Assembly: GCF_006494535.1 (NCBI RefSeq)
Contig: NZ_VHIQ01000002.1
Coordinates: 434,001-498,000, forward strand
Origin: Paucihalobacter ruber
Lineage (GTDB): Bacteria > Bacteroidota > Bacteroidia > Flavobacteriales > Flavobacteriaceae
Length of the DNA: 64,000 bases
Reading direction: 5' to 3'
Shown in pieces: positions 43,420 through 46,563 of this stretch (positions are counted from its first letter, which is position 1; every line of letters begins with the position of its first letter). The notes under the pieces are model-generated. The model ran no database searches and was not told the DNA's origin. It saw nothing but the letters and a program-made list of their open reading frames with translations. Made by a program: the position numbers and the translations under genes.

Positions 43420-43431
43420 GAATTGCATAAA

Positions 43432-43494
43432 ATGAAAAAAGGAATTTTATTAGTAAATCTGGGCGAATTTTTCGTGTTGGTTAAAAGAGAGTAG
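43432..43494 (+). pseudogene. hemH: 5' remnant of hemH
   Basis: The 33 bases at 43432-43464 are identical to the first 33 bases of hemH (45517-45549). The next bases continue with GAATTTTT, matching hemH after 45594. In between, 45 bases (exactly 15 codons) are missing, bounded by the 5-base direct repeat TGGGC, so the frame is kept through the deletion. The remnant then diverges and ends at TAG after 20 codons. It sits where the next gene of the upstream operon should begin. Confidence 0.85.
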
Positions 43495-43678
43495 GTTATA
43501 CCCATGGTAAACTGTCTTGGCCTTAAAGAAAATTGAGAAAAGATTATAAAATACACATTGATATAAGTTATTGTAAAGAGCTTGACTAATCAGTATTCGT
43601 ATTTATATGTCAAAAATTTTAAAATCACTTGTAAACACATATAAAGGAATTATTAAAGGTCATAAAAATAATTGATTT

Positions 43679-44305
43679 TTACTGCTTTTGAGCACTACGT
43701 TTTTCCAAATACTCCTTATTAAACTTTAATCGATCCGGATTAATTTTAAAAGCAAATTCTAAAAGAGATAAATTGTCAATTATCTCTAATTTTTGTTTTG
43801 AATGCTCCTCTACTTTAGCTTTTAAATTCATTAATAGAATAAGTTTCTCTTTTGTTACAATACTATCATTTTTTAGAAATTTATAAAATCTATATGGGTG
43901 TTTAAATCCAAAGTTATTTCCTGTGACTTCTGCTTGTTCAGCGTTCTGCCATATATAGAAGCCCAAATTTCGCCATTTAAAAAGTACTCTGTTAAAGACC
44001 AAATTAAATGCATGATCATCTATTATTTGAGAATCTAGAATAACGTACAATGAGTCCTTATAGGATTCAGCTTTAATTCTTTTGGTATTAATAATTGAGA
44101 ATGTTATGCTATCGATGTCAATCTTGAAATTTTTATCCAAAAAGTCATAATGCCTCTCGAATAAATCTAGATTATTTAAACTGTCAAGTTTTTTATCCAG
44201 GTTTTCAATTTTATATGCATCATTTTTCCTTTTTTTTTCTTGACTAATGCAAGACATCACTACCAAAAGTAGTGATGTCAATGTAATTAATTTAATCCTT
44301 TTCAT
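43679..44305 (-). CDS. Lipoprotein of unknown function
   Basis: A 208-residue lipoprotein: signal peptide MKRIKLITLTSLLLVVMSC with lipobox VMSC (Cys19), then a Lys-rich segment. The body is charged and helical with one long hydrophobic-aromatic stretch (FNLVFNRVLFKWRNLGFYIW). No cysteine besides the lipidation site. Separated by two bases from the ferredoxin-like lipoprotein gene and probably co-transcribed with it. No family recognised. The surrounding DNA looks inserted between the hemH remnant and hemH. Confidence 0.7.
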   Translation of the reverse strand: MKRIKLITLTSLLLVVMSCISQEKKRKNDAYKIENLDKKLDSLNNLDLFERHYDFLDKNFKIDIDSITFSIINTKRIKAESYKDSLYVILDSQIIDDHAFNLVFNRVLFKWRNLGFYIWQNAEQAEVTGNNFGFKHPYRFYKFLKNDSIVTKEKLILLMNLKAKVEEHSKQKLEIIDNLSLLEFAFKINPDRLKFNKEYLEKRSAQKQ

Positions 44306-44307
44306 AA

Positions 44308-44871
44308 TTAATACAGAAATTCTTCCATATGACTGTCAGCAACAATATCTTCTAGTGGATAAGAGACACTAGGCAAAAAGAAACCCATTGCCAATTGAGT
44401 GTCATTTAGAAATGTTTGATCGCTTTGATCTACTCTTCCGCCTCTTAGTTTCATTGCATCAGTCGAATCAGCTCCACATCTGCATGAATAAGGAAAATCA
44501 TAACCTTGATCCTCTAGATGGTCTAAAATATAAACGTTAGAAGGACATCTTTGCATAGGGCTAGACCACTCTTGCTGGTCTCTATTCCAGATAGATAATT
44601 GATAACTCGGTACTCTGGAAAAATTTAAATGGTCTACTTTATTTGTCGTTAGCATTGTAATTCTATCCGATGCAAATTCATAATAATTTTTTACAGAACC
44701 ATAGTGGTTAAGTATCAAAGTTTTTGATTTTTCTGAAAACGGTTGTTTCATATTAAACAACACCTCAACTTCGTCAAATGACAAGTCTTGGTTTTCAACT
44801 AAATCTTCGTTATCACATGATAGAACAATAAGAAAACAACACCCCATTAAAATTAATTTTAAACTTCTCAT
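44308..44871 (-). CDS. Lipoprotein with a degenerate plant-type ferredoxin domain
   Basis: A 187-residue lipoprotein (lipobox LSC, Cys19). The last 80 residues follow the [2Fe-2S] ferredoxin pattern: SNVYILDHLEDQGYDFPYSC, then GGRVDQSDQTFLNDTQL and SYPLEDIVADSHMEEFLY. In intact ferredoxins the cluster ligands are Cys in PYSC, GAC, STC and LTC. Here only the first (Cys130) remains; the others are Asp135, Asp138 and Ser168. An extra Cys132 is present. A normal cluster is therefore unlikely. Secreted 2Fe-2S lipoproteins of this layout occur in Flavobacteriaceae, so this is probably a diverged member. Confidence 0.75.
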   Translation of the reverse strand: MRSLKLILMGCCFLIVLSCDNEDLVENQDLSFDEVEVLFNMKQPFSEKSKTLILNHYGSVKNYYEFASDRITMLTTNKVDHLNFSRVPSYQLSIWNRDQQEWSSPMQRCPSNVYILDHLEDQGYDFPYSCRCGADSTDAMKLRGGRVDQSDQTFLNDTQLAMGFFLPSVSYPLEDIVADSHMEEFLY

Positions 44872-45404
44872 TACTTAAAAATATTTGCTGCCCTTTAGGG
44901 TCTTGGGCGGTTAGTTTTCGACCGTTGTTGGCTTTCATGCTTTACCTGTAATGAGTCAATTTACGTATTTTCTTTAATTCCGTAAGTCGGATGGTCTTAA
45001 AATTGCACTCTGATAGTGTTAACACAGTTGCCAACTACTCAAAAATGTTAAACCACAACATCTATTTTAAATGGTTATAACCCTTTGATTGTTGCCAAAT
45101 TAGAAAAAAAAAAAAACGAAAAATCCAATTTTAAACTGTTAAAATTGTTAAAGAAAAGTTAAGTGCGGAAAAACCGTAACACCAAACAAAAAATAGGTTG
45201 GAGTTTAACATATGCATTAACACATATTGTCAAAATTTTTTACTATCGATTACTAAAAAAAGAACTTTACTAGTACATTTTTCAAATTGATAAAAAAAAA
45301 CAGTGGTTTTTGCGTACTTAATTATGGGTTGAAGTTTAAGCAACCTCAATATTTAAATAGTTAAAAACTATCAATGTTAACAAGTAAAAACAACTGGGCT
45401 ATTG
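44872..45404. other. AT-rich intergenic region upstream of hemH
   Basis: About 530 bases with no reading frame of note. Near the left end there is a GC-richer stretch with CCCTTTAGGG (44890-44899) and an inverted CGGT/ACCG pair, which resembles repeat debris. The remainder is poly-A/T rich. It belongs to the segment between the hemH remnant and hemH. Confidence 0.5.
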
Positions 45405-45412
45405 TATCTTTG
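45405..45412 (+). promoter_or_regulatory. -7 element of hemH
   Basis: TATCTTTG matches TAnnTTTG exactly. It is followed after 29 bases by two adjacent dyads. No consensus -33 TTTG is seen, which is common for regulated promoters. Confidence 0.5.
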
Positions 45413-45441
45413 TTATCAAAAATTATTATGAATCATATTTT

Positions 45442-45469
45442 ATTACAATTGTAATATCACAATCGTAAT
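45442..45469. promoter_or_regulatory. Two adjacent 14-bp operator-like dyads upstream of hemH
   Basis: ATTACAATTGTAAT (45442-45455) is a perfect palindrome. It is followed directly by ATCACAATCGTAAT (45456-45469), the same site with two changes. Tandem identical dyads with no spacer, between the -7 box and the gene, are what a repressor site looks like. The regulator is unknown. Confidence 0.5.
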
Positions 45470-45485
45470 TAAATTAAAAGATCCC

Positions 45486-45503
45486 TCCCGATAGCTATCG
45501 GGA
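45486..45503. repeat. GC-rich palindrome in the hemH leader
   Basis: TCCCGATAGCTATCGGGA is a perfect 18-bp palindrome 13 bases before the hemH ATG. Palindromes of this kind recur between genes in flavobacterial genomes. Its position parallels that of the palindrome before trpS. Confidence 0.65.
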
Positions 45504-45516
45504 TCGCATGCACATT

Positions 45517-46563
45517 ATGAAAAAAGGAATTTTATTAGTAAATCTGGGCTCACCCGATAGCCCAAATCCCAAAGACGTTAAGAAATATTTGGGCGAATTT
45601 TTAATGGACGAACGTGTGATAGACGTACCACTTTGGGCCAGAACTTTGTTGGTGAAAGGCATTGTTTTAAATACCAGACCTAAAGCATCGGCTAAAGCTT
45701 ATAGCAAAATTTGGTGGGAAGAAGGTTCACCGCTTATTGTATTGTCTGAAAGACTTCAGCATAAAATACAAGAACAAGTTGAGGCGCCGGTTGCTTTGGC
45801 CATGCGTTATGGTAGTATGACTATTAAGTTAGGTCTTCAGGAATTGGTGGATAAAGGTGTTGAAGAAGTTTTTCTTATTCCTTTATACCCGCAATACGCC
45901 ATGGCAACTACCGAAACCATTTTGGTGTTGGCTGAAGATATCAGGAAAGAACATTTCCCCAATTTAAAAATCACCGATTTAAAACCATTTTACAATAATC
46001 CCGATTATATAAAAGTGCTTTCAGAGTCGATTAAAAAGCAGTTGGAAGGCAAAGAATATGAGCATTTATTATTCTCTTATCACGGTGTGCCCGAGCGACA
46101 TATTCGAAAAAGCGACATAACTAAATCGCACTGTAATCCGAGCTTGTCCGGTGGTGGTGTTTGTTGTAAAACACCGTCGAAAGCACATGAATTTTGCTAC
46201 AAACATCAATGTCTTGAAGTCACCAGATTGGTAGGTGAATATCTTAAATTAGAAGAAGGCACCTATTCAACTTCCTTTCAATCCAGACTTGGATTCGACC
46301 CATGGTTACAACCTTATACCGACAGAACTATTGAAAGGTTAGGGAAAAGTGGCATTCAAAATATGGCAATTGTAACGCCTGCTTTTGTAAGCGATTGTTT
46401 AGAAACCCTTGAAGAAATTGCCATGGAAGGCGAAGAAATCTTTCATGAAGTCGGCGGTAAAAATTTCACCACCATTGCCTGTTTAAACGATGATCAGGCT
46501 TGGGTAGATTTACTTTCAAAATGGATTAACAGTTGGGTTGAAGCCAATTTAGTAACTGCTTAA
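45517..46563 (+). CDS. hemH: Ferrochelatase
   Basis: A 348-residue enzyme that inserts Fe2+ into protoporphyrin IX (or coproporphyrin III). The catalytic His is in FSYHGVPERHI, and FQSRLGFDPWLQPYT holds the conserved Phe-Gln-Ser-Arg block. Between them Cys206, Cys216, Cys217, Cys227 and Cys232 cluster in SHCNPSLSGGGVCC and FCYKHQC, which could ligate an internal [2Fe-2S] cluster as in some other bacterial ferrochelatases. ATG 45517 is preferred over ATG 45508, because the remnant at 43432 starts at the same codon. Its stop overlaps the MATE gene start by one base. Confidence 0.96.
   Translation: MKKGILLVNLGSPDSPNPKDVKKYLGEFLMDERVIDVPLWARTLLVKGIVLNTRPKASAKAYSKIWWEEGSPLIVLSERLQHKIQEQVEAPVALAMRYGSMTIKLGLQELVDKGVEEVFLIPLYPQYAMATTETILVLAEDIRKEHFPNLKITDLKPFYNNPDYIKVLSESIKKQLEGKEYEHLLFSYHGVPERHIRKSDITKSHCNPSLSGGGVCCKTPSKAHEFCYKHQCLEVTRLVGEYLKLEEGTYSTSFQSRLGFDPWLQPYTDRTIERLGKSGIQNMAIVTPAFVSDCLETLEEIAMEGEEIFHEVGGKNFTTIACLNDDQAWVDLLSKWINSWVEANLVTA

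Follow-up and report, generated by a model that had tools for sequence, protein, structure and literature searches.

A plant-type ferredoxin domain with one of four cluster cysteines left, carried by an exported lipoprotein of Paucihalobacter ruber and encoded in a rare two-gene module

The window analyzed here is a 64,000 nucleotide stretch of the Paucihalobacter ruber genome. At its hemH locus, two copies of the start of hemH lie 2085 bp apart, and the segment between them harbors two adjacent genes on the reverse strand. The first codes for a lipoprotein with a ferredoxin domain that has lost most of its cluster ligands (referred to as the window copy) and the second, starting 2 bp downstream, for a companion lipoprotein. 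The following features were assigned:

43432-43464, forward strand: hemH start, left copy, 33 bp identical to the right copy, with the remnant GAATTTTT of the adjoining hemH sequence behind it (repeat comparison)
43465-45516, no strand: segment of ~2.05 kb between the hemH-start copies with both module genes, absent at this position in the same-genus genome G001
43679-44305, reverse strand: companion lipoprotein, 208 aa, helical, of no known family, without a Cx2E[ND]CCQ tail (sequence comparison, model)
44308-44871, reverse strand: ligand-lost ferredoxin-domain lipoprotein (window copy), 187 aa (ORF, TIGR02008/PF00111, PDB matches)
44815-44871, reverse strand: lipoprotein signal peptide MRSLKLILMGCCFLIVLSC, with lipid-carrying Cys19 followed by DNED (read from sequence)
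44602-44790, reverse strand: module-specific N-terminal region, aa 28-90, helical (alignment; helices in the AF2 model)
44311-44559, reverse strand: plant-type Fer2 (beta-grasp) domain, aa 105-187 (TIGR02008, PF00111, PDB matches, Foldseek)
44482-44484, reverse strand: Cys130, the sole remaining cluster ligand (alignment, PDB matches)
44476-44478, reverse strand: Cys132, an extra cysteine at an alanine column, private to the window copy (alignment)
44467-44469, reverse strand: Asp135 (GAT), ligand position 2 (sequence, alignment)
44458-44460, reverse strand: Asp138 (GAT), ligand position 3 (sequence, alignment)
44368-44370, reverse strand: Ser168, ligand position 4 (alignment)
45517-45549, forward strand: right copy of the hemH start, belonging to the functional hemH at 45508/45517-46563 (ORF, repeat comparison)

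In the same-genus genome G001 the upstream gene is directly followed by hemH, and neither module gene was found in that genome. Together with the duplication of 33 bp of the hemH start around the segment in P. ruber, this bears out the displacement from hemH described in the original prediction, and its simplest reading would be that the segment was inserted and the target duplicated in the process. The left hemH copy has further lost internal sequence lying between two TGGGC repeats; the duplicated regions are 43424-43472 and 45509-45602. At 44895-45060, upstream of the ferredoxin gene, GGCGGTTAGTTTTC and TTGCCAACT form a possible repeated intergenic element, which occurs once in the window. 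No Bacteroidota -7 promoter consensus was found upstream of the window copy, a motif too common to carry weight, and a search for RNA families gave no match.

The window copy scored above the curated cut-offs of both TIGR02008 fdx_plant (NCBIfam; 87.2 bits, E 4.9e-25, cut-off 81.15 bits) and Pfam Fer2 (PF00111; 23.9 bits, cut-off 21 bits), and it matched PDB ferredoxins with a best E of 4e-24. These scores rule out a chance resemblance and substantiate the predicted retention of the ferredoxin scaffold. A frame error or pseudogene was likewise ruled out, as the frame is open with zero stops. In the AF2 model the Fer2 part reached pLDDT 88-94 (~75 in the ligand loop) and the N-terminal region was helical; in Foldseek the predicted Fer2 part matched solved plant ferredoxins with a TM of ~0.9. 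Since the input alignment included intact phage ferredoxins, it would favour a ferredoxin-like model in any case, and the model indicates compatibility with the fold, short of proof. The window copy thus resembles plant-type [2Fe-2S] ferredoxins (TIGR02008/PF00111) in score, fold, the VDQSDQxFLxD motif and an acidic C-terminus, but differs from them by the replacement of three of four ligands, its lipoprotein nature and an extra N-terminal region. The helical stretch of ~85 aa between the signal and Fer2 matched no known family.

When aligned to Anabaena ferredoxin, the ligand columns of the window copy read C130, D135, D138 and S168, which departs from the four-cysteine pattern CxxxxCxxC...C of TIGR02008 and agrees with the predicted loss of three of the four ligands. 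The predicted retention of Cys130 and presence of an extra Cys132 were also seen. The column of Cys132 is invariantly alanine in 55 intact ferredoxins and alanine or serine in all relatives; redox chemistry by a vicinal CxC, one of the new roles offered by the original prediction, therefore finds no backing, Cys132 being absent from every relative.

An intact paralogous module was found in the same genome (G000:C16:245365-246622; L002:1471-2731). It consists of a ferredoxin lipoprotein of 194 aa with all four cysteines (35% identity to the window copy) and, 4 bp after this gene, a companion of 223 aa (29% identity, E 8e-19 to the window companion) that ends with CGAENCCQLDN. As paralogs of both genes are adjacent elsewhere in the genome, the uncharacterised lipoprotein gene noted beforehand is a true partner. 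The window pair belongs to the ferredoxin-lipoprotein and companion module as defined here, and its place in a rare two-gene module with an intact form in the same genome argues that the window copy is a real cluster-less offshoot and no chance resemblance. Scans of genome contigs revealed both module genes, with a four-cysteine ferredoxin, in a MAG of the Bacteroidales (L068); in Chryseobacterium artocarpi (L069) the companion occurs by itself, without a ferredoxin. Within the family sampled around C. artocarpi, the flavobacterial genome G769 carries two modules (L074 and L073/L077). L074 encodes a 376-aa lipoprotein with a C-terminal four-cysteine Fer2 domain, followed by the companion. At this locus (L074:184-1314; L078:998-6991) the N-terminal part of the lipoprotein is unrelated, and neighboring genes encode the companion, a TonB-dependent receptor and a lipoprotein of 442 aa. 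A 547-aa protein (L068:6292-7935), encoded downstream of the module in the Bacteroidales MAG, has another companion-like domain that follows a TPR-like part.

The companion was not found in 396 other genomes of the P. ruber family (G001 included), in 24 other genomes of the family of the Bacteroidales MAG or in the remaining 376 sampled genomes of the class. The module is therefore rare and patchy. With the window protein alone as query, the genome-contig scan gave no relatives; a 49% match (L035) proved to be a ferredoxin of 145 aa that stands apart and has no lipoprotein signal. Searches of plasmids, phages and viral contigs yielded ordinary ferredoxins or nothing: three apparent full-length viral matches (L103, L105, L151) are ferredoxins of 95-98 aa whose N-terminal match is spurious. 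Many IMG/VR contigs (L083-L162) carry plant-type ferredoxin genes of ~95 aa, and such genes are known from cyanophages. No description of the module was found in the literature searched, most subscription papers lying outside that search.

The second ligand-lost ferredoxin, L077 of G769, reads D, S, C and C at the ligand positions when translated in a single frame starting at the lipoprotein signal. It contains a single in-frame TAA in its N-terminal part, which could be a sequencing error of the draft genome. L077 is the closest relative of the window copy in the N-terminal region (49% identity), and QDLSFxEVExxFNMKQPF within this region is common to both. The two agree more closely in the N-terminal part (49%) than in Fer2 (44%), whereas all five other pairs show the opposite order. 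In a tree with masked ligand columns, both were separated from the intact pair (support 84/86), and they grouped in a tree of the N-terminal part (88/92), whereas Fer2 alone was unresolved. A Fer2 tree including phage sequences gave no resolution and placed the window copy on a long branch. As each of the two copies keeps ligands that the other has lost, most losses were separate in the two. Each of the two genomes thus carries an intact and a ligand-lost module.

To analyze scaffold retention, 46 non-ligand positions conserved in at least 90% of 55 intact ferredoxins were compared. Of these, 35 are kept in the window copy, as in its intact paralog and in L074, while the MAG copy (L068) keeps 39 and L077 keeps 30. 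For the window copy, one of four ligands against 35 of 46 scaffold positions corresponds to a Fisher p of 0.06. Neutral decay was simulated starting from two intact module genes. The combination of at least three lost ligands, an open frame and a near-baseline scaffold was reached by no more than 0.1% of runs whatever the divergence, and at 0.1 neutral substitutions per site an open frame of the length of the window copy survived in 6% of runs. Because simulated decay almost never resembles the window copy, the fold was evidently under selection during ligand loss; by the same simulation, this constraint may have ended since. Codon-position mismatches in Fer2 were 0.45/0.45/0.62 for the window copy and L077, versus 0.29/0.26/0.54 for the intact pair. 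This flatter profile, together with an N-terminal part more alike than Fer2, indicates that constraint on Fer2 is relaxed but still present.

Plain decay is nevertheless a live rival, given that the closest relative combines ligand loss with a stop, and we regard it as possible, though not probable. It would picture the window copy as a laterally acquired, dispensable module copy that lost its ligands first and whose frame is yet unbroken. The intact module kept elsewhere in both genomes, the absence of the companion from G001 and 395 further genomes of the same family, the position within an inserted segment and the long branch all fit with this picture. It sits poorly with the open frame and scaffold retention, which are very unlikely under full neutrality, with the strong conservation of the QDLSFxEVExxFNMKQPF stretch between both copies and with third codon positions that remain the most divergent. 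The original prediction had tied decay to four-cysteine homologues in close relatives along with frameshifts here. Half of this was observed, as such homologues exist in the same genome and in the MAG while a frameshift is absent from the window copy. Its proposal of selection for a new role is supported in part, by selection on the scaffold and by a partner that changes along with it, and is weakened by the broken nearest relative.

The alignment of homologues called for beforehand showed four cysteines in the intact copies, and the replacements at the five lost ligands of the window copy and L077 were D, D, S, D and S. Neutral replacement of cysteine would give only aspartate or serine at all five with a probability of 2e-4 to 9e-4, and all three aspartates, including Asp135 and Asp138 (both GAT), are two base changes away from a cysteine codon. 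The bias points tentatively to a requirement for polar residues or oxygen ligands, albeit as a post hoc observation on a small sample, and metal binding through oxygen ligands would be weakly favoured. As a specific form of this, a mononuclear hard-metal site (Fe, Mn, Zn or Ca) could be formed by Asp135, Asp138, Ser168 and Cys130. We consider such a site unlikely, as the pattern is drawn from five positions in two proteins, L077 being broken, the two copies differ in their Asp/Ser pattern and the polar residues may merely satisfy an amide-rich loop.

All module ferredoxins carry Sec-type lipoprotein signals and none has twin arginines; for the window copy, the absence of a twin-arginine motif was read from its signal peptide. 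Cofactor-containing exported proteins are normally Tat substrates (PMC3623810). A protein exported by Sec is unfolded in transit, so that even the four-cysteine copies might lack a cluster. In this case the family would never have held [2Fe-2S], the cysteines would form disulphides or an envelope metal site and ligand turnover would be cheap. This alternative appears improbable, because CxxxxCxxC...C and the surrounding loop are exactly conserved across three intact copies, each of a different genome, as a cluster demands. The lipoprotein part of the predicted surface lipoprotein holds (lipobox LSC19), while its surface exposure stays putative: the mature start CDNEDL is acidic, which makes it a partial match to the export signal, but it differs from the published LES consensus. 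LES proteins combine a lipobox with polar or acidic residues at +2 to +6, namely SDDFE for F. johnsoniae and K-(D/E)2 for Capnocytophaga (PMC5080379).

Changes were also observed in the companions. All three companions of intact ferredoxins end with a Cx2E[ND]CCQ tail (CGAENCCQ, CKEENCCQ and CTQEDCCQ, followed by a few residues), whereas the tail is missing from both companions of ligand-lost ferredoxins and from both without a ferredoxin. In addition, companions beside intact ferredoxins have ordinary signal peptides and those beside both ligand-lost ferredoxins have lipoprotein signals. The tail pattern (three versus two, or four, cases) is suggestive at most and fits a joint loss of thiol or iron-sulphur function, with the direction of change in the companion tail inferred. 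The window companion was modeled as all-helical, with half of the model confident. Among solved structures it had no convincing relative, weak matches covering the N-terminal helix only, which is no demonstration of a new fold. IMEF encapsulin cargo (PF24309/TIGR04536) is helical too and was weakly matched by one of six companions (E 0.006-0.014), but with a score below the curated cut-offs, and the other companions and a PDB profile search gave no match. A defence family was rejected, as PDC-S11 was matched by the L068 companion only (E 6e-4, 17 bits) and is not common to the others.

Ferredoxin domains that lost their cysteines are already known. The N-terminal domain of L-proline-dehydrogenase-type oxidoreductase 2 (PDB 1Y56 family) has been described as a 2Fe-2S ferredoxin derivative without the cysteines (PMC1949818), and like the window copy it retained the domain, with its inserts, after the metal-binding residues were lost. 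That domain is old and part of an enzyme, whereas the window copy is an exported lipoprotein and its genome also encodes an intact paralog. An extracytoplasmic ferredoxin domain is also found in the pectocins M1 and M2, bacteriocins that join it to a catalytic domain, and is used for recognition there, linked to the FusA ferredoxin uptake system (PMC11452297, PMC5095587). A pectocin-type bacteriocin was rejected for the window copy, in which Fer2 is the sole domain found and the fused, cell-wall-attacking catalytic domain is missing.

With about evenly balanced confidence, we propose that the window copy is a lipoprotein whose beta-grasp domain serves in binding or as a scaffold without a cluster, and which may be heading for loss; this reading is favoured over both decay and the hard-metal site. 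The protein is a lipoprotein with a Sec-type signal, in which a short helical N-terminal region precedes the plant-type ferredoxin domain, and with a single cysteine left it would no longer hold an ordinary [2Fe-2S] cluster. The ancestral module likely consisted of a four-cysteine ferredoxin and a companion ending with Cx2E[ND]CCQ. In one sublineage, represented by the window copy and the G769 copy, ligands were lost and the companion is a lipoprotein without the cysteine tail. The pair may now do without iron-sulphur chemistry and form a complex for binding or scaffolding, anchored in the membrane, that uses the N-terminal region and the ferredoxin surface for protein contact and has abandoned electron or iron handling. 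Constraint would be weakening, with some copies already broken. Counted against the cluster-free reading, only two ligand-lost copies are known, one of them has a stop, and the Fisher comparison of ligand with scaffold loss, taken alone, reaches only p 0.06.

Ferredoxins are textbook cytoplasmic electron carriers, and exported iron-sulphur proteins are expected to travel via Tat, which makes a rare Sec-exported lipoprotein ferredoxin with a dedicated partner an odd case. There is a slim chance that the thiolate ligands were rebuilt into oxygen ligands in step with the loss of the cysteine tail in the partner. Ferredoxin and companion would then have co-evolved away from an exported iron-sulphur function, towards another metal or a role free of any cluster, with the unswitched module kept in the same genome. 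The occurrence of intact and ligand-lost modules together in one genome, in two genomes, provides a natural experiment on the abandonment or rebuilding of a metal site, and the paired modules are also informative on the contribution of the companion.
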